64,000 nucleotides of DNA from Neobacillus paridis (GTDB lineage: Bacteria; Bacillota; Bacilli; Bacillales; Cytobacillaceae). The first letter of the stretch is position 1. Every line of letters starts with the position of its first letter. The translations under genes and the position numbers were made by a program. Where the stretch lies: the NCBI RefSeq assembly GCF_016765675.1, contig NZ_JAESWB010000005.1, forward strand, positions 124,001 through 188,000, given 5' to 3'. Shown piece after piece: positions 802 through 57,188 of this stretch. The notes below the pieces were generated by a model. The model was not told where the DNA came from. It saw only the letters and a program-made list of their open reading frames with translations, and did not search any database.

Positions 802-2145
802 ATGAACATCGAGGAATTCCAATCAAAGCTATTCGATGCAGCGCACAGCAGCGGTTTTACAGAGACTGAGATCTATTATGAAAAGAAAGAAGTTTTTGGC
901 TGCCAAATCTACCAAGGGGAAATTGACCAATATGAAATTGCCGAAGACGGCGGCGTTTCTTTTCGGGGCATTTTTAACGGAAAAATGGGTTACGCTTATT
1001 CCGAAAAGATCGATGAGGGATCCATCCCCTTCCTGTTAGAAAGTGCCAAAGAAAATACACAGATCCTAAATGAAGAAGAACGTGAGGAAGTTTTTGCCGG
1101 CAGCAGCCACTACGAGAAGCGCAATTTTTTCTCAGAATCATTAAATAAAGTGACTATTCCGGAAAAAATCAAGTTTATTCAAGATGTGGAACGGGAAATT
1201 TTGGCGGCGGATCCCCGCATTGTTGCCACCGATACCTGCCAGATCCGGACGGAAGCGCTTACTAGATTCCTCATTAATAACAAGGGCTTGTCTCTTTCTG
1301 ATCGGGTCAATTATTTATATTTGATATTGGAAGTCATCGCCAAAGAGGCGGAGGAAACAAAATCTGCCTATACCTTTCATGTGACAAAGGACTTTCATAG
1401 TTTAGATGCGAAAGCCATCGCTCAAAAAGTGGTCGATGAAACACTCTCTCAATTAGGAGCAAGGAACATCGCAAGTAAGGATTACCCAATTCTTTTAAGA
1501 AATGATGCCGCGGCCAGCTTGCTGTATACGTTTTCAGCTAACTTTTCCGCTGAAAACACACAGGCAGGTATTTCCGCATTAAAGGATAAACTTGGTGTAG
1601 CGATTGCTGCTGATAAAATCACCATCGTTGATGATCCCTTCCTTGAAGACGGATTGGCGAGCAGGACGTTTGACAGCGAAGGGGTGGCTTCTAAGAAATT
1701 GACATTAGTCGATTCCGGAACGTTAACATCGCTGCTTCATAATCGTAAAACAGCGGAAAAGGACCGAACTGAAACAACTGGGCATGCCCATAAAGATTCT
1801 TATAAAAGTGCTGTTAAAGTTGGACCTTCCAACCTTTTTATTGAACCATCAACCACGTCTTTTGAAAACTTACTGGCATCGATTGATGAAGGTGTTTTAA
1901 TCACCAATCTTTCCGGTCTCCATTCTGGAACGAATCTGGTATCCGGTGATTTTTCAGTTGCTGCCAATGGATTTTACGTAAAAGATGGGAAAATTCAATA
2001 CCCGGTAAACTTAATGACTATAGCGGGTAATTTTTATCAAATGCTGCACGATGTTGAGGAAGTTGGCTCCGATTTAACCTTCCCGCTGCTACCAGTCGGC
2101 TCCCCATCGCTGTTGATAAAATCGTTATCGGTTACGGTGGAATAA
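802..2145 (+). CDS. tldE: TldE/PmbA, non-catalytic partner of TldD
   Basis: This 447-residue protein is the PmbA/TldE partner. It lacks the HExxxH motif seen in TldD, as expected for the subunit that builds the enclosed chamber of the heterodimer. Recognisable landmarks are the C-terminal glycine-rich GDFSVAANGFYVKDGK-type strand and the following NLMTIAGNF segment typical of the fold. The start follows the tldD stop by 3 bases and an AAAGGGGG-type ribosome site lies within the end of tldD. A U-tailed hairpin follows immediately, so the operon ends here. In E. coli the pair matures microcin B17 and degrades CcdA; whether there is a peptide client here cannot be told from the window. Confidence 0.92.
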   Translation: MNIEEFQSKLFDAAHSSGFTETEIYYEKKEVFGCQIYQGEIDQYEIAEDGGVSFRGIFNGKMGYAYSEKIDEGSIPFLLESAKENTQILNEEEREEVFAGSSHYEKRNFFSESLNKVTIPEKIKFIQDVEREILAADPRIVATDTCQIRTEALTRFLINNKGLSLSDRVNYLYLILEVIAKEAEETKSAYTFHVTKDFHSLDAKAIAQKVVDETLSQLGARNIASKDYPILLRNDAAASLLYTFSANFSAENTQAGISALKDKLGVAIAADKITIVDDPFLEDGLASRTFDSEGVASKKLTLVDSGTLTSLLHNRKTAEKDRTETTGHAHKDSYKSAVKVGPSNLFIEPSTTSFENLLASIDEGVLITNLSGLHSGTNLVSGDFSVAANGFYVKDGKIQYPVNLMTIAGNFYQMLHDVEEVGSDLTFPLLPVGSPSLLIKSLSVTVE

Positions 2146-2152
2146 GGTTAAT

Positions 2153-2195
2153 AAAGTGGATTTGCGCGAAGGGTGCAAATCTACTTTTCTATTTT
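2153..2195 (+). terminator. Intrinsic terminator of tldDE
   Basis: Arms 2153-2165 and 2175-2187 form a 13-bp stem with one G-U pair and a 9-base loop, followed by a T-rich tail. Confidence 0.8.
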
Positions 2196-2207
2196 ATTAG
2201 CGAATTT
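2193..2207. repeat. Solitary copy of the TTTATTAGCG-AATTT element
   Basis: These 15 bases are the exact reverse complement of units found in the 21-bp-period array at 57,091-57,188. Here the element stands alone between the tldE and jetD terminators, which suggests a dispersed intergenic repeat. Its function is unknown. Confidence 0.6.
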
Positions 2208-2258
2208 AAAAACACTTAAAACGATGAAAGGCTGAACCAAAAATTAGGTTCAGCCTTT
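2205..2258 (-). terminator. Intrinsic terminator of the Wadjet operon
   Basis: A perfect 12-bp stem (2227-2238 with 2247-2258, AAAGGCTGAACC type) is followed on the minus strand by a T-rich tract down to about 2205. The jetD stop codon (2250-2252) lies inside the stem, so translation termination and the terminator overlap. Confidence 0.82.
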
Positions 2259-3542
2259 AGCAAATTCCTCTTTAATATCATTAATTAATTCCGCTAAAAT
2301 CCCTTCTTGATACCCCGCTTTTTGATGAAGTCTTATCGCTGCGGCAACCTCGGAAAGTTCGGGGGAGGTGACGGTATCCAACTTGGCAATTCTGCTTGTA
2401 ATATCTTCATCAGAAATTGTTTTCATATACGATTCGGCATCCATTCTCCAGTAGGTAACATGGTGGGGATATCGATCTTTTAGTCGTTGCGCCATCGAAA
2501 TACCTTCAGGATCCAGATCACCGGAATAATAGAGTTGACAACCTGATTCCACTAATAAATCCAAGACAATCCAGCTAGCTGTGCGAAATTGCCCATGAGT
2601 GCAAATCACTGGAGCATCTGGAACTTCATCGACAATCGTCGAACAAACACTTGAATTTTCCAGTACCCACACCTTATTCCCGTTCGCAGGCCAGATTTTG
2701 TTTATTTTTAATAATTCTTTAAATGGAACATTTAATACTGAGCCTGTTCTGACGGACGCTTGCCATACCGGATGCAGTCCGGACTCCCCTTCTGCAAGTA
2801 ACCCACGGAAGGTAACGAAACTCCACAAATCATCGCGCATCAACCCATAGATACTTAATAATTCGTTTAGTTCCTCTGTTGTTTTTGGCATTCCCGTTTC
2901 ACGTAATTCCTTTAATTGCTGATTGACGTGCAGACAATGAACAAGCAATTTTCCTGGGACTTGATTGTTATCAAAAAAGTGGGGATTACCAGTAGTTCGC
3001 TGTGCAAAAACAGGTAATCTTTCAAACTTATGATCCTTACAAGGTAGAGCCTGAAAAGCCTGAAAAACTATCGATAGTGATTTACGTAATTCCGCTGCAT
3101 CTTGCTTGTATAGTGACCAAATCCAGCGGGAATCAGCAGGCTTAGACTCAATCCAATCCCACCACCAGCTTCCCTCAGGATAAGCAGTCTTTAATTCTTG
3201 GAAAAATGATTTTTCCTTATCTTCCTCCAATCTGCTTTCCTCACTTTTTGTCAGGATCGATTCCCCCAACACCGCTTCAAGCAGTTCAATCAGTGAATAA
3301 TCAGCAAAACCAGTTTGCGCCAATTCTTTTTCAAAGGAAAGTAAACTCACTTTACCTTTATCAATAACATCCTCCACCGGCTGTCCTAAAAACCCAGCAA
3401 TCGATTCTACTTCATCATAAGAAAAATCGACAATGCTAACTGAACCGCCGACTCTCCCAAGAGAACGGTATTTTTCTTTAAATAAGGTGAAAAGCCTAAG
3501 AAAACCTGGCTCTTCCCTGAAAATCTGAACTTTGTCATTCAT
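2250..3542 (-). CDS. jetD: Wadjet JetD, TOPRIM nuclease subunit (DUF3323/DUF2399 type)
   Basis: A 430-residue protein and the last gene of the four-gene operon. JetD is the topoisomerase-VI-like nuclease that cleaves small circular plasmid DNA after the JetABC condensin-like motor extrudes it. The C-terminal TOPRIM fold is visible: the catalytic Glu at about 295 in VWVLEN, then the acidic DxD motif in GDLDPEG at about 341-347, where D342 and D344 would bind metal. The N-terminal half is the family's DNA-binding/arm region, with no other motif I can name. It overlaps the jetC stop by 8 bases. Domain naming is from knowledge of type II Wadjet (DUF2397, DUF2398, SbcC-like ATPase, DUF2399). All metal-binding residues appear intact, so I expect an active nuclease. 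Confidence 0.9.
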   Translation of the reverse strand: MNDKVQIFREEPGFLRLFTLFKEKYRSLGRVGGSVSIVDFSYDEVESIAGFLGQPVEDVIDKGKVSLLSFEKELAQTGFADYSLIELLEAVLGESILTKSEESRLEEDKEKSFFQELKTAYPEGSWWWDWIESKPADSRWIWSLYKQDAAELRKSLSIVFQAFQALPCKDHKFERLPVFAQRTTGNPHFFDNNQVPGKLLVHCLHVNQQLKELRETGMPKTTEELNELLSIYGLMRDDLWSFVTFRGLLAEGESGLHPVWQASVRTGSVLNVPFKELLKINKIWPANGNKVWVLENSSVCSTIVDEVPDAPVICTHGQFRTASWIVLDLLVESGCQLYYSGDLDPEGISMAQRLKDRYPHHVTYWRMDAESYMKTISDEDITSRIAKLDTVTSPELSEVAAAIRLHQKAGYQEGILAELINDIKEEFAKG

Positions 3543-6500
3543 TTGGAACCAGCTCCATCATCGGGGCCTCATCGACTACTAATGTGCGCTGCTTACCGTC
3601 CCACTGGTAACGAATCACTGTTACAAAGCTGGCATTCTTCGGCCGTACTAACTCACAAATAGATAGGCTGGAAATAGTATCATAATCTCCCCACAACGCT
3701 TGTGAGTTCATGATATAGTTAAAGCCAAGCTGTTCAACCACTTCAAACATATCGCGAATATTGTTCTCGTCGACACCAGCAAAGGCTTCATCAAGTGAAA
3801 TGATGTACGGGGCCATTGCTCCTGCTTCCTTATAGCGTGAATAAGCAGCTGTAAATAATGGTATATACATCGCCATTGCCTTTTCACCACCGCTGAATTT
3901 GAAGAAAGCATTGTTTGTTAATTCACGTTTCGGCTCATTTACCCGCTTATACGAGAGTACAAAGGTGAACCACTTCCGGTAATCGAGCACTTCCTTCAAC
4001 ACTTGATGGAGTGTCGAACCTTCATTACGCAACTGGATTAATTCCTTTGCTTTTTCAATTCTGGAGCGAAAGTGCATCGTAATTTTGGCTAAATCGTCCT
4101 CATTCAAAAATTTACTATTCCGTTGCAAAAGCTTAACCAAATCTTTTGTATCCAATTCTTGCTCTGATTCGGCAGTTAATGGTTTCCAGGCAATCGAGAA
4201 AGTCAGACCAGATGAATTATCACGGCTCTCCATGATTTTATCCATCTCACTTACCCATTGTTCAGCTCTTTTTATCCGGTTTCGTAATATGACCCCGACG
4301 CTGTTGACAATAATATCTTCATAGAGCTGACGATCTTGTTCGTCGAGCCAGCTTTTTTGGTCTGCAAGTTCTTTTTCTAATGAGCTGTGAACAAAATAAG
4401 GGGTCACGCGCTGACCTTTATATTCCATAAATATCAGCCGCCGGCTCTTCAGTTGATTCCACTCATCCATAAATGGCTGGTAATAATCGCCCCAAGCTTC
4501 TGAAAACCATTCCGGACGTTCGACTTCTTCGGTATATTCAAACATTCGATATTCCGTTAAATATACCTGTTCATTGATGAATGCCTTGGTTAACTGTTCA
4601 TTCAGTTTGGACCGGTCGTACTTGAGAGTAATCGCTTCAAGCTGCTTTATGATTTTACCAGGTTCCCTTTCCTCAACCTCTACAAAATCCCGGTTGATTT
4701 CTGTGTTCACCATTTGTGCCCATGCAGCAGCCATGTTTGACCAGAATTTAGCGCTTATTTGGGCAGCAGTTACATCTTTTTGAAGTGAATCGTATTTTGC
4801 TTCATTTTTAGGAATAACCTCCAAAAGATGTTGGATCCCAATTTCCGCTTCTTTTAGTTGCTGTTGAACTTGTTGAATCCGCTGCCTTACTTCATCAATT
4901 CCCTTTAATTTCAACTGTTCTTCAATCGCTTGAATTTCGGCTTTTTCTTTTCGCAGCTGGGATTCTTTAACGTTTTGTTCCCCTTTTAACTCGTCTAACT
5001 CAGCCTCTATTTCACTTAGACGATGATGTAACTCGGCCAATCTTTTTCGAGCATAAAAGCACTTTAGAAAAAGATCTTTAAACCCATACAAATGTTCGCG
5101 ATAGTTTTTGGCAGCGGCTTCCGCCTTCGCTAATACTTCTTTTGATAAGGATAGATTTAACTGCCCAGCTTGTTGGTGAAGCTGAAGTTTAATGTTTTGA
5201 AGCTTAGCATGAACCATTTTCCATTGTTCATCGAGCAGTTGGAGAAATTTTTTCTGTTCATCTAATTGGTGCCCGGTTTTTTCAATTTGTACATTGACGT
5301 CACTTAATCCTTGGTCCATCGGCATTGTTTGTTTCCAGATCTCTGCCTGACTTAATTCTTCATCGTATTCTCGCAGTTGAACGTGTAACTCTTGTAATTC
5401 GAACTGGAGCTGTTCCAGAATCTGTTCACATTCTTTCATTTTCTCCAGCTGGTATCGTTTACGAGAGGAGCGGCCGATAAATTTGGACGGGCCTTCATTT
5501 GGAGCATGTCCCACTAAACAGCCAAGTGAATACGATCCATCCACATCCAGATGAAAACCGGTGTCACCCTGTTCAAGCGGAATACTTCTGAGCACTTCAT
5601 CCACAAGCTTATTGGAAATTGAACTGTCCTCTTCTAAATCTGGACGCAAATAATCAGCTAATGTATACCCTAATAATTGCGGTTCCGGCTTGATGACCCG
5701 ATCATGAAGCGGGGCAATCGATTTTTCGGTAATTAAACTATCTAATATCCCTGTTTGTTTTAAGGCTGATTCAATTCTTTCTTTTTGCTCTTCCGTCACA
5801 TGATCCTGAAACTCAACGGCAGCGTAAAACGGTACAAACGCCTGCCCATCTTCCAGCAGCTGTTCACGAAATTCTTCTGTATCCTTGGCTCGTTCAGGAT
5901 TCGGCATTTTTAACGTCTTCCAATATTGTAATTCTAATTTAGCCGCTTCGATTTCCTGATTCTTAGCTTCAAGCAAATTTTTAACCCATCTTTTTTTCGT
6001 CCTGATTTCGGTTATAAATTCAGTAATCGCTGAAAAGAGCTTTTCTCTTACTTGGTCATAACGATTTTCTTCATATAAACCTTCTATGGCTCTAGCGATT
6101 TCTTGACGACTTTCATTCGTAAAAGTGAGCTTTGGATGTTCTTCGATCCAGCTAAATACAGCATGCTCCAGCTTTTGCTTTTCTTCGATAAACCATTCAG
6201 ATAAATGGTCGAGATTCTTCCGTAATTCATCCACTTCCTGTTTCTTTTCGGAAGATTGCCGCTGGAGCCTGTTATGTTCCTCTAACAGCCGATCTTCTTC
6301 TTCAGCCAGCTTTTTTAAACGGCTAAGCATTTGTTCATGCTCACCGATTTCCTGGAACCAGATAGAAAAATCAAACTCATCGTCCTGATGTCGTTCATAC
6401 CCACTGACATTCACCTCATGCTGTAAAAACGAAGCCTCCTCGGCATCAAACTCTAGGTCACCGAGTAAATTTTCCATCTCCATTTCATGTTGCTTTATCT

Positions 6501-7644
6501 CTGTTTGGGTTTGCTCCCGTTCTTGAAGAAGGCGATTATAACCGGAATTTTTTTGATCCCATTTCATTTGAAGCGAACGAATTTCATTCATCAGCAAGTT
6601 GCTGTTTTCGATTTTTTTCCGTTTTTCCTCTTCAAGATTCCAGACTTCGTGCCGCTCCAACCGTTGTTTGTCAGCTGCCGCCACTTCTTTTTGCTGGACA
6701 AATTCTTGTTTCCGTTTCCGCTGATGTTCAATCTCATTGGTTAGATTTTCAACTTGAGTCGTTAACCCCTTTACAAGTTCATCAGCTTCCCGTTGTCTTT
6801 TTAAAGCTGTTTGCCACTTTGCGGCCCATTCAGCTAAAATATACTGGTTGTAAGTATGATACTGTTTTACCAGCCGCTCGCTAGAAGCATACTCCCGTTC
6901 CAATTGTTCAAGCTGCTGTTGGGTCTGGTCCATACTCTCAATGGTATCTGACAAGGACCGTAACTCATCATCTGTTAATGGCGGCAAAGCAGATTCCAAT
7001 ATTTCATAAATAACCGTTGGCTTAAAATCTTTTGAAAGCTTCGGACTGCGTAATTGGATTAAAAGCTTGATCAAGTCCTCATATGCTTCAATGGATTGAA
7101 AACCAAATATATACTTATTGACAAGTTCCATATATTCTCGCTGTGAATGAACGAGAAAGCCGCCGTCACCGATACGATTTTCCAGTTCCTTCGCGGAAAA
7201 AGGCACTCTGTCCCCCTGCTGTTTATGGGCCAGTTCTAAATCTTGTCCAATTCTTCGATTATCTGTAATGACAAAATACCACGATTTGATCCCCTTATGC
7301 CTTTTCGCCTGCATGCCAATCCCGGTAGTAATGTAGCGCTCCATTCCAGCCATTTTGTATTCGATAAACAAATATCCTGTTCGTTCATCGCGATCGACCA
7401 CTTCTTTTTCACCAAGCAGATAATCTTCCATTCTGCGGGCTTTTGAACCAAACGGGTCCAAGCGGTCAGGGGATTTTTTTCCGTCTAACAACACGGGCAG
7501 AAAGCTTTGCATCGTAACCGATTTACCTGATCCATTTGTTCCCCGAAGCAGTAATTTACCGTCTGAGAAATGAAAAATTTCATCATCGTAATACCAAAAA
7601 TTCAATAAACCGGCTCGATTTAGCACCCACTTCGCTTCTGTCAT
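3535..7644 (-). CDS. jetC: Wadjet JetC, SMC/MukB-like ATPase
   Basis: A 1369-residue SMC-like motor. The Walker A loop GTNGSGKS is at residues 35-42. Long heptad-rich coiled coils fill most of the middle, split by a non-coiled hinge-like segment around residues 620-760. The ABC signature FSGGEK is at 1250-1255 and Walker B IISLDEAF ends with D1285-E1286. The whole ATPase head is therefore complete. In Wadjet systems this subunit dimerises and extrudes DNA loops, and circular DNA of plasmid size triggers cleavage by JetD. The start overlaps the jetB stop by 4 bases (ATGA type) and the end overlaps jetD by 8, showing tight translational coupling and fixed stoichiometry. The gene was formerly catalogued among TIGR02680-like proteins. 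Confidence 0.92.
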   Translation of the reverse strand: MTEAKWVLNRAGLLNFWYYDDEIFHFSDGKLLLRGTNGSGKSVTMQSFLPVLLDGKKSPDRLDPFGSKARRMEDYLLGEKEVVDRDERTGYLFIEYKMAGMERYITTGIGMQAKRHKGIKSWYFVITDNRRIGQDLELAHKQQGDRVPFSAKELENRIGDGGFLVHSQREYMELVNKYIFGFQSIEAYEDLIKLLIQLRSPKLSKDFKPTVIYEILESALPPLTDDELRSLSDTIESMDQTQQQLEQLEREYASSERLVKQYHTYNQYILAEWAAKWQTALKRQREADELVKGLTTQVENLTNEIEHQRKRKQEFVQQKEVAAADKQRLERHEVWNLEEEKRKKIENSNLLMNEIRSLQMKWDQKNSGYNRLLQEREQTQTEIKQHEMEMENLLGDLEFDAEEASFLQHEVNVSGYERHQDDEFDFSIWFQEIGEHEQMLSRLKKLAEEEDRLLEEHNRLQRQSSEKKQEVDELRKNLDHLSEWFIEEKQKLEHAVFSWIEEHPKLTFTNESRQEIARAIEGLYEENRYDQVREKLFSAITEFITEIRTKKRWVKNLLEAKNQEIEAAKLELQYWKTLKMPNPERAKDTEEFREQLLEDGQAFVPFYAAVEFQDHVTEEQKERIESALKQTGILDSLITEKSIAPLHDRVIKPEPQLLGYTLADYLRPDLEEDSSISNKLVDEVLRSIPLEQGDTGFHLDVDGSYSLGCLVGHAPNEGPSKFIGRSSRKRYQLEKMKECEQILEQLQFELQELHVQLREYDEELSQAEIWKQTMPMDQGLSDVNVQIEKTGHQLDEQKKFLQLLDEQWKMVHAKLQNIKLQLHQQAGQLNLSLSKEVLAKAEAAAKNYREHLYGFKDLFLKCFYARKRLAELHHRLSEIEAELDELKGEQNVKESQLRKEKAEIQAIEEQLKLKGIDEVRQRIQQVQQQLKEAEIGIQHLLEVIPKNEAKYDSLQKDVTAAQISAKFWSNMAAAWAQMVNTEINRDFVEVEEREPGKIIKQLEAITLKYDRSKLNEQLTKAFINEQVYLTEYRMFEYTEEVERPEWFSEAWGDYYQPFMDEWNQLKSRRLIFMEYKGQRVTPYFVHSSLEKELADQKSWLDEQDRQLYEDIIVNSVGVILRNRIKRAEQWVSEMDKIMESRDNSSGLTFSIAWKPLTAESEQELDTKDLVKLLQRNSKFLNEDDLAKITMHFRSRIEKAKELIQLRNEGSTLHQVLKEVLDYRKWFTFVLSYKRVNEPKRELTNNAFFKFSGGEKAMAMYIPLFTAAYSRYKEAGAMAPYIISLDEAFAGVDENNIRDMFEVVEQLGFNYIMNSQALWGDYDTISSLSICELVRPKNASFVTVIRYQWDGKQRTLVVDEAPMMELVPNE

Positions 7645-8804
7645 GATTCCTCTCCTCCTTTCAAAAAGTCTGCCGGGTACTCACCCGTCATGACTCCTAA
7701 CAGTGATTTAAGCCGGATCAGCGATGTTTCTGAATCTACTTCCACCATCATCCAATCCTTCATCGCCCGAATCAGCTCAACTCGAATGGCACTCGTGCTC
7801 ATATCGCGAAAGTACTTAGCCCACCCTGTTCCTTTTTCCCGGCGCAAATCATCAATCATCTGTTCGAATTCTCCTTCCGAAAGCAGGATTTCCCCGTTTT
7901 CATTTGCTTGAAACCGTTCAGGCTGTTGATGAATGTATTTAGAAATTTGAAGAATGAGGTCAGTTGATGCCTTCGTATTCGGAAAGGTTTGTTGGTACTG
8001 CTTTGGCTCGGCAATCGATAAAAAGGCGGTATTTTTGTAGACATGAAGTTTATAATCACTATGCTTTTCAATATCTTCCGCTAACCGATTTCGGTAATTC
8101 CGAATATAAAGAAAATCAGGGTCCTGCTGGTCGCTTCGATGTAATCCCGGGGAAAAGAACAGCCTGCGGTATACCCTTTTTCTTCGTTCATCCTCTTGAT
8201 TTAACTTCCAATCTTCCTCAAGCAGTTCACTCCAATGCTGATAAGTGGAGAAATCATCAGGATAGGTCCTCATAAAGTAACGGCTATAGATGGTTGCTTC
8301 ATATAAAACTTCCTGATCTTCGTTTTGATCAAAGCGGCTAATATCGCCATCAATAGTCCGAATTAAGCGAAATTCCAGTAACATCTTTACTGCCCTGATT
8401 AACGACTTCCGGTGGGTATAGAGCGTCCAATCAAGCGAAAAATCTCCCGGATAACCAGTTTGTATATCCTGACAAAGTTCTGAAAGCAGAAACTGCTCAT
8501 CGACTGCTTTTCCCTCGAGAAATGCAAGCGCACAGCAAAAAATGGCATAATCCATCGGTTCCTGAAACTCTTGAATTCCCATCCAGGATTCGGGTGCTGC
8601 CGGGATTTTTTCCAGCTTAATGAAGTGCTGATGTACAATCAGTCTTAGTCCGAATTTATCATCAAGATAGCGGCGCAATACTTTTTCCCGTTCACGCACC
8701 ATTTGATACCACTCCGGCTGTTCGGCTCGAAGGATCCAATAATGATGAAACAAAATATCCATGGCCTGCCTTGCCTTTTCATCAAATAATTGTGTCTGCT
8801 CCAT
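7641..8804 (-). CDS. jetB: Wadjet JetB, MukE-like winged-helix subunit (DUF2398 type)
   Basis: A 387-residue protein in the position of JetB, the KITE/MukE-like subunit that clamps the kleisin JetA and contacts DNA. No catalytic motif is visible. The content is helical with many aromatic and charged residues, as in the DUF2398/TIGR02678 family, and the length is as expected. The ATG follows the jetA stop by 4 bases, and the ribosome site GAGGTGATC is made from the jetA stop region. It overlaps jetC by 4 bases. Assignment comes from gene order and family resemblance rather than a diagnostic motif. Confidence 0.85.
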   Translation of the reverse strand: MEQTQLFDEKARQAMDILFHHYWILRAEQPEWYQMVREREKVLRRYLDDKFGLRLIVHQHFIKLEKIPAAPESWMGIQEFQEPMDYAIFCCALAFLEGKAVDEQFLLSELCQDIQTGYPGDFSLDWTLYTHRKSLIRAVKMLLEFRLIRTIDGDISRFDQNEDQEVLYEATIYSRYFMRTYPDDFSTYQHWSELLEEDWKLNQEDERRKRVYRRLFFSPGLHRSDQQDPDFLYIRNYRNRLAEDIEKHSDYKLHVYKNTAFLSIAEPKQYQQTFPNTKASTDLILQISKYIHQQPERFQANENGEILLSEGEFEQMIDDLRREKGTGWAKYFRDMSTSAIRVELIRAMKDWMMVEVDSETSLIRLKSLLGVMTGEYPADFLKGGEES

Positions 8805-8808
8805 TTGA

Positions 8809-10296
8809 TCACCTCATTTCGTCAAATATGAAAGCAGCGTCCGGCATTTGTAAGTCCCCATCTTCCGCCCTTAAGGTAATTGTTTTCTGACTATCCAGTA
8901 TTACCTTCACTTGCAGCCCGTAATCCGTCTTGACCATCCGATCTTTATTCGCCATTGATTTTCCAATCCAACTGAGCAGTACCTTGCGAATAAATGGCTC
9001 CACTTTAGGCAGTGATGAAAGGGTGATTTTTCCCTTGTTCATATATTTTTCTATTAATCTTTTCTCTTGTGCTCGTTCCTTTAAATACTGTTCCCTTTGC
9101 TCTTTTTTCTTTTGCTCATTGGAAATAAATGCGCTTGGTTTTGTTTTTTCTCGATAACGAACCGTCCGTGGTTTAATCGTTATTTCCGTTGGTGCCTCTT
9201 CCCAAGTGTCGACATGTAGATTTTCGGTTGTCGCTTCTTCCAGCTGCAGATGTTGAATCGTCATCGAACCAAAGACAACAGCTGATAGTTGATGGGCTTC
9301 TTCTTGGTCATGACAATCCGCAAACCATTTGGACAGCTGCAGGTAGTCCTTTTTTCTGCTCCGGAAATGCTGCTGCCTCTCCCCAATACGCTGGACATAC
9401 CTTGTCATGCGGCGAATCATTTCATTCGTCTGCCATTGCAAAATATCCAATTCACTTTGCTGGGTAACGGAGCCTAGGAACCATTGTCTAAGAGAGGACC
9501 AATATTCTTCATATTCCGTTTGCCAATCCGCGGCTGATGATGACACATCTTCTAAACGTGGAATCGCCCCGCGATGTTCAATTAATTTTTGAAAAAAAGG
9601 TTTCATATTTTCGATTGCAAGTTCGCTCAGTAATTGTTGAATTTGCAGCGATGTTTTCTGCAGCGAAACAATAAAGTCCCGCAAATAGGTAGTAAATTGA
9701 TTTTTATAGACGAGAAACGCTTCGGTTTGCATCCGTTGGTCTGTCTGTTCACTATTGATATAAGCGATATAATCGGCCGTACTTGTCCGGATCGTTTGAA
9801 AATAGCGAAAAACATCCTCCCATATTCGCATATATTCTTCCGCTGGCTTAGTTAAATCGTTGTCCAGCTCAGTTTGCAGGCTGGTTAACGCCTGATATAA
9901 CCGATCAAATTGCGAGCGTTCTAACGATCCTTGGAAGGTGTCCCCTATTTTTTCGAGGTTGACGATCATTCTCTCAATCTCAACAGTATAGGGTGTACAT
10001 TGATAACGAAATCTCTTTTTCTTGTATTCCTCAATCGTTTTAGCATTCGTCATATCCTGGCGGGCAATTAAGTTATTCCACTTGACGAGCTGCGCTAATT
10101 GTTGATGCAGCAGATCTTCCTGATAATCAGCAAAGGCCGGAATCGAGCGCATATAATCCAATATCTCCTCCGGCGCGATAAAATCTCTCATTCTTTCGTG
10201 CTGATGGTAAAAATAGCGAAGTATCGTTCGATAATAAGCAGCAGAATCTGCTGTTAAATAGCTTGTCTCAATGATTTTCTTCATAGTTGAATCCAA
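8809..10296 (-). CDS. jetA: Wadjet JetA, kleisin-like subunit (DUF2397 type)
   Basis: A 495-residue first gene of the operon. It is the DUF2397/TIGR02677-type kleisin that bridges the JetC heads and carries JetB. The N-terminus (YLTADSAAYYRTILRYFYHQHE) has a winged-helix look, the middle is helical and charged, and a C-terminal winged-helix-like region follows a Lys/Arg/Glu-rich linker near residues 385-425. The annotated start is TTG at 10,296 with AGGATGATG upstream; an in-frame ATG five codons later (10,284) is a weaker alternative because it lacks a clear ribosome site. A sigma-A promoter lies directly upstream. This completes a JetABCD set. Confidence 0.86.
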   Translation of the reverse strand: MDSTMKKIIETSYLTADSAAYYRTILRYFYHQHERMRDFIAPEEILDYMRSIPAFADYQEDLLHQQLAQLVKWNNLIARQDMTNAKTIEEYKKKRFRYQCTPYTVEIERMIVNLEKIGDTFQGSLERSQFDRLYQALTSLQTELDNDLTKPAEEYMRIWEDVFRYFQTIRTSTADYIAYINSEQTDQRMQTEAFLVYKNQFTTYLRDFIVSLQKTSLQIQQLLSELAIENMKPFFQKLIEHRGAIPRLEDVSSSAADWQTEYEEYWSSLRQWFLGSVTQQSELDILQWQTNEMIRRMTRYVQRIGERQQHFRSRKKDYLQLSKWFADCHDQEEAHQLSAVVFGSMTIQHLQLEEATTENLHVDTWEEAPTEITIKPRTVRYREKTKPSAFISNEQKKKEQREQYLKERAQEKRLIEKYMNKGKITLSSLPKVEPFIRKVLLSWIGKSMANKDRMVKTDYGLQVKVILDSQKTITLRAEDGDLQMPDAAFIFDEMR

Positions 10297-10336
10297 TGGG
10301 CATCATCCTATAAAAATGATCTATTTATACTATTGT

Positions 10337-10366
10337 ATTATATCGAACTTAGGATTAAAATGTAAA
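10337..10366 (-). promoter_or_regulatory. Sigma-A promoter of the Wadjet operon
   Basis: Minus strand: -35 TTTACA (10,361-10,366), 18-base spacer, consensus -10 TATAAT (10,337-10,342), about 40 bases before the jetA start. No operator is evident, so expression may be constitutive. Confidence 0.7.
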
Positions 10367-57090: not shown

Positions 57091-57188
57091 GAATCGCTAA
57101 TAAAAACCTCCATTCCGCTAATAAATGACTCAAATTCGCTAATAAAACCTTTAAATTCGCTAATAAATCTATAAAAACCGCTAATATG
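57091..57188. repeat. Five-unit tandem repeat with exact 21-bp period
   Basis: The 10-base core CGCTAATAAA begins at 57,095, 57,116, 57,137 and 57,158 and, with two changes, at 57,179: an exact 21-base period with 11-base spacers that partly agree (AAATT before the core in units 3 and 4). It fills the space just upstream of the DUF2533 gene. A minus-strand frame through it reads heptads of FISEF type, probably not a gene. Confidence 0.8.

Follow-up and report, generated by a model that had tools for sequence, protein, structure and literature searches.

A type II Wadjet (JetABCD) operon beside tldE in Neobacillus paridis, a close homologue of the structurally solved Neobacillus vireti system

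Plasmid defence has been described for type I Wadjet of E. coli GF4-3 (ecJET) and for C. glutamicum MksBEFG, systems that combine kleisin, KITE, SMC and TOPRIM nuclease subunits (PMC10586767, PMC10123090, PMC12647877). In the published model, a DNA circle is extruded by JetABC motors up to the point at which these meet, and the collision activates JetD; linear DNA and the large chromosome escape cleavage (PMC10586767). The type II complex of Neobacillus vireti (nvJET), the subject of a structural study by Roisne-Hamelin, Liu and Gruber (Structure 2025, doi 10.1016/j.str.2025.06.004; reference 30 of PMC12647877), is reported to cleave naked circular DNA (PMC12647877). For ecJET a donut-shaped hinge is described, with two JetB in each half complex, whereas nvJET has one JetB and a hinge lacking a central channel, and did not get past obstacles in the assay of that paper (PMC12647877). 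In the literature searched, Wadjet is mentioned together with vireti or Neobacillus only in PMC12647877.

A kleisin, KITE, SMC and TOPRIM nuclease set like those of type I Wadjet and MksBEFG, composed of proteins that belong to other protein families, is encoded in the window analysed here, a stretch of 64,000 nucleotides from the draft genome of Neobacillus paridis (NZ_JAESWB010000005.1, 124,001 to 188,000; all coordinates below are positions within the window). Four open reading frames on the minus strand (10296-2250) follow in the order jetA, jetB, jetC, jetD, encoding a kleisin subunit with a TTG start (JetA, DUF2397/TIGR02677; 8809-10296, 495 aa), a KITE/MukE-like subunit (JetB, DUF2398/TIGR02678; 7641-8804, 387 aa), an SMC-like ATPase (JetC, TIGR02680; 3535-7644, 1369 aa) and a TOPRIM nuclease (JetD, DUF3323 with DUF2399/JetD_C, TIGR02679; 2250-3542, 430 aa). 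The first-pass annotation had described four overlapping genes, which holds for jetC/jetD (8 nt) and jetB/jetC (4 nt) but not for jetA and jetB, which are separated by 4 nt. The ABCD order recurs in the named loci L013 to L092 (the best 80 of 287) wherever all four genes were found, and jetC is present as a single copy in the draft genome.

Profile searches assign all four proteins to type II Wadjet. The best PADLOC models are JetA2 (690 bits), JetB2 (523 bits), JetC2 (1668 bits) and JetD2 (536 bits), with type I models scoring weakly (at best 52.7 bits for JetC1 vs 1668 for JetC2). JetA matches PF09660 (DUF2397, 476 bits) and TIGR02677 (426.5 bits, cut-off 165.9); JetB matches PF09661 (DUF2398, 358 bits) and TIGR02678 (255 bits, cut-off 125); JetC matches TIGR02680 (955 bits, cut-off 463); and JetD matches PF11796, PF09664 and PF09983 (DUF3323, DUF2399 and JetD_C), all over cut-off, together with TIGR02679 (232 bits, cut-off 196). 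Chance would not give scores this high. The sole Pfam match of JetC over cut-off, SbcC_Walker_B (77 bits), spans 87 of its 1369 residues; it marks an ATPase motif domain and does not assign the protein to SbcC. Pfam SMC_N reaches 25.1 bits, under its cut-off of 40, and the NCBIfam housekeeping SMC model SMC_prok_B 17.2 bits against a cut-off of 567. The complete type II-like JetABCD system proposed in the first-pass annotation is thus borne out by full type II sets in PADLOC, Pfam and NCBIfam (TIGR02677-02680, all over cut-off); the profile comparison that it had suggested returns DUF2397, DUF2398, TIGR02680 and DUF3323/DUF2399 models for the four proteins respectively, with best models that are neither MukBEF nor SbcC and with TOPRIM-family matches for the 430-residue JetD. 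By PDB sequence search, JetA, JetB and JetC match, as the only solved chains, their namesakes in entries 9qe0/9qe1 (9qe0_E aligned over JetA 1-495, 9qe0_A over JetC 1-1367, and 9qe0_D matching JetB). JetD has no sequence match among solved chains, and a profile search returned two chance matches (E 0.5-0.8), so the placement of its TOPRIM site draws on family models and conservation.

The closest relative by JetC, among the best 80 of 287 loci, is the Wadjet-II system of N. vireti (nvJET; PDB 9qe0/9qe1). JetA and JetB of N. vireti DSM 15602 (locus L037) align to the 9qe0/9qe1 chains without visible difference, and the PDB entry is therefore taken as the N. vireti complex. Gene content and gene order agree between the two operons, and the proteins are 73-88% identical in almost gapless alignments: 435/495 (87.9%) for JetA, 335/386 (86.8%) for JetB, 1098/1369 (80.2%) for JetC and 314/430 (73.0%) for JetD, with 0, 4, 1 and 1 gap columns. 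In JetC, the two ends that carry the ATPase motifs are almost identical (97/100 over residues 1-100 and 98/100 over 1201-1300). Both operons lie at an equivalent site, running convergently towards tldDE, and share the same ribosome-binding string. Unlike the N. vireti operon, that of the window begins jetA with TTG rather than ATG, has a gap of 4 nt between jetA and jetB where the N. vireti genes overlap, and has a different gene upstream of jetA.

Within JetC, the Walker A (GTNGSGKS, 35-42), signature (FSGGEK, 1250-1255) and Walker B (YIISLDE, 1280-1286) motifs lie at the residues given in the first-pass annotation, which was also right in describing the TOPRIM Glu/DxD residues as intact. Across 78 JetC rows (the window and 77 full-frame relatives from the best 80 of 287 encoding stretches), G35, G40, K41 and S42 are present in 77, the remaining row having one gap, and S1251 to E1254, D1285 and E1286 are invariant (78/78). 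JetD E295, D342 and D344 are invariant in 77/77 rows (the window and 76 full JetD relatives from the same best 80 of 287), with alignment A1 holding the window and 47 of these 76 relatives. Mutation of E236 or D279 is reported to impair the MksG nuclease drastically (PMC10123090), and by residue order, as opposed to structural alignment, these positions may be equated with JetD E295 and D342/D344. The residue counts omit partial frames of jetA (L021, L025, L040, L051), jetB (L090), jetC (L025, L029, L063) and jetD (L057, L063), as well as loci without jetD (L042, L089) or without jetA (L089, L090). In the Wadjet II loci L021, L025, L040, L051, L057, L063 and L090, the partial frame of jetA, jetB, jetC or jetD may reflect decay, a contig end or an assembly error.

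The SMC-like character of JetC, and the correspondence of JetA and JetB to kleisin and KITE subunits, would also be expected of a MukBEF/MksBEF-type chromosome organiser with a housekeeping role, in which the nuclease would be of minor importance. Such a role is very unlikely, given the presence of an intact jetD with conserved E295, D342 and D344, the best PADLOC matches to JetA2 to JetD2, and the distribution of jetC, which, unlike a housekeeping gene, is missing from 50 of the 61 genus genomes.

Upstream of jetA, a likely sigma-70-type promoter (TTTAAT-16-TACAAT; 10332-10359, minus strand) was recognised by eye as the better-kept pair when the upstream regions of the window and 10 chosen relatives, 11 in all, were aligned; TTTAAT (10359-10354) pairs with a box (10337-10332) that reads TANAAT in 11/11 regions and TACAAT in 8. 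The single promoter claimed in the first-pass annotation stands as a candidate upstream of jetA, but the better-kept pair lies a few bases from the TTTACA/TATAAT that it had implied. A consensus promoter scan was uninformative (13 sites vs 18.0 expected from shuffles) and, with a count below that of the shuffles, was dropped as evidence in favour of the alignment. The ribosome-binding string AGGATGAT is present in 11/11 aligned regions, and the jetA start codon falls at one shared place as TTG, ATG or GTG, with TTG the commonest among the 11 rows. After jetD, an intrinsic terminator with a 12-bp stem (2227-2258, minus strand; -20.2 kcal/mol, z = -6.3 vs shuffles) agrees with the single terminator previously claimed for the operon, although terminator-like sites in the region are no more numerous than chance predicts (8 vs 7.2). 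That the operon is a silent or decaying relic, as might be suggested by its TTG start and by decay known in the genus (the jetC of N. bataviensis, split into several frames), is very unlikely in view of its four full-length frames, intact active-site motifs, a ribosome-binding string kept in all 11 rows of an alignment where TTG is the commonest start, and a strong terminator.

The reading to which we give a probability of about 0.94 is that the window holds an intact chromosomal type II Wadjet operon of a Neobacillus-group genome, in which JetABC would serve as the motor and JetD would cut small circles. The operon is complete and, from its intact frames and residues, probably active in plasmid restriction. 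On the analogy of the published nvJET and type I work, from which loop extrusion, circle sensing and cutting are here extended to the proteins of the window, JetA, JetB and JetC would form a dimeric SMC motor driving ATP-dependent DNA loop extrusion; the motors would run fully round a small circular DNA and then collide, whereupon a JetD TOPRIM dimer would cut the circle without sequence preference. Since JetC aligns to nvJetC from end to end with a single gap column, its hinge probably lacks a channel, like that of nvJetC, and with such a hinge obstacle bypass would be poor. The absence of plasmid replicons was considered as support and set aside: none of the 11 jetC carriers has a plasmid-replication family over cut-off, against 5/50 of the other genomes (Fisher p = 0.57). 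Rep_1 occurs in 1/61 genus genomes and Rep_3 over cut-off in 5/61, together in five genomes, with a sixth Rep_3 match, in G006, falling under cut-off.

The operon is flanked by a convergent tldE of the PmbA/TldD peptidase family (802-2145, plus strand; assigned by Pfam) and, upstream of jetA, by a nitroreductase-family gene (PF00881; 10503-10988, minus strand), both outside the system. It had been described as standing alone beside tldDE without other defence genes, and PADLOC searches of 40 of the 48 other window ORFs of at least 150 aa are in accord, with no second defence system found. Five ORFs with PADLOC matches, the strongest (RtcR and mad3 models) included, are generic by Pfam, comprising two sigma-54 activators, an ABC transporter ATPase, a MarR regulator and an ABC-2 membrane protein; five further ORFs gave weak PADLOC matches (E about 1e-4 to 1e-3). 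Searches of the window returned no tRNA and no Rfam match.

Within the genus, jetC is carried by 11/61 genomes including that of the window, full-length in 10 and broken in one (G081, N. bataviensis), and in a quick-method tree the window JetC groups with named Neobacillus JetC. The broken gene (L029 10001-13764; L128 4147-7916) lies in several frames and is shorter than its relatives, with jetA, jetB and jetD of full length; the split is either natural loss or assembly error. A tldE was found in 19/60 genus genomes, the window's included, and about 12 kb downstream of it were read in 17 of the 18 others, the contig of G066 ending there. The jetDCBA genes are convergent with tldE in 3/17 of these regions, directly in N. 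vireti (G078) and G030 and with a 395-aa ORF between in G081, and the remaining 14/17 have other genes downstream. Jet genes thus stand beside tldE in 4/11 jetC carriers (the window, G078, G030 and G081); in six (G004, G029, G035, G062, G064 and G067) no tldE was detected, and in G014 tldE and jetC are on separate contigs. In one carrier in which tldE is absent, G029 (L015), a nitroreductase gene nonetheless lies upstream of jetA as in the window.

A counterpart of the site without the operon is found in genome G061, in which a nitroreductase gene 86% identical to that of the window directly follows tldE with no jet between, followed by homologues of three further window genes in kept order with other ORFs interspersed. 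DNA similarity between the window and G061 fades at about 2188 on the left, near a terminator-like hairpin after tldE (2153-2187, plus strand), and returns at about 10478 on the right, the corresponding gap in G061 being about 0.4 kb. In a tldE tree, from which G066 is omitted, the window is sister to G061 (97/95); the label 'jet at tldE' requires 4 changes on this tree, a count not lower than that for shuffled labels (mean 3.6).

A box of the form TTCGC[CT][AG]ATA recurs every 20-21 bp, sometimes at multiples of this spacing, with 10-11 variable bases between neighbours, and occurs in the window at 57093-57167 (plus strand) and once at 2193-2204 (minus strand). The two-box pattern is present in 38/61 genus genomes (15 matches in that of the window, 82 in N. 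vireti) and in none with reversed-pattern controls, and in 28/30 loci examined (L146-L175, with several covering one and the same site) the boxes fall outside any ORF of 100 aa or more; the array resembles an intergenic repeat of this group with helical phasing. The gap between tldE and the nitroreductase gene in G061 (L123) contains four boxes in one orientation, then two in the other. As a mechanism of insertion at the operon edge the boxes were rejected, since of the 16 other tldE regions read, L126 and L130 alone have boxes no further than about 300 bp from the end of tldE.

Our own reading of this distribution is of old residence at the tldE site followed by repeated loss or rearrangement, with repeated gain as the alternative. 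Tentatively, and at somewhat less than even odds, the DNA downstream of tldE may be a site of recurrent turnover in Neobacillus, where an ancient Wadjet has on several occasions been lost, broken, relocated or replaced; this reading is weakened by the 7/11 jetC carriers that have no jet genes beside tldE. The kind of system is already known, and the addition made here is genomic detail on the patchiness of jetC and on the G061 site without jet genes, together with a close homologue of the N. vireti system, whose structure is solved and whose genomic position it shares. The G061 site without the operon and the broken jetC of G081 could be used to ask what role type II Wadjet plays in its native hosts; if the turnover reading is true, close relatives with and without the operon would offer natural pairs for assessing the cost and protection of a native type II Wadjet.
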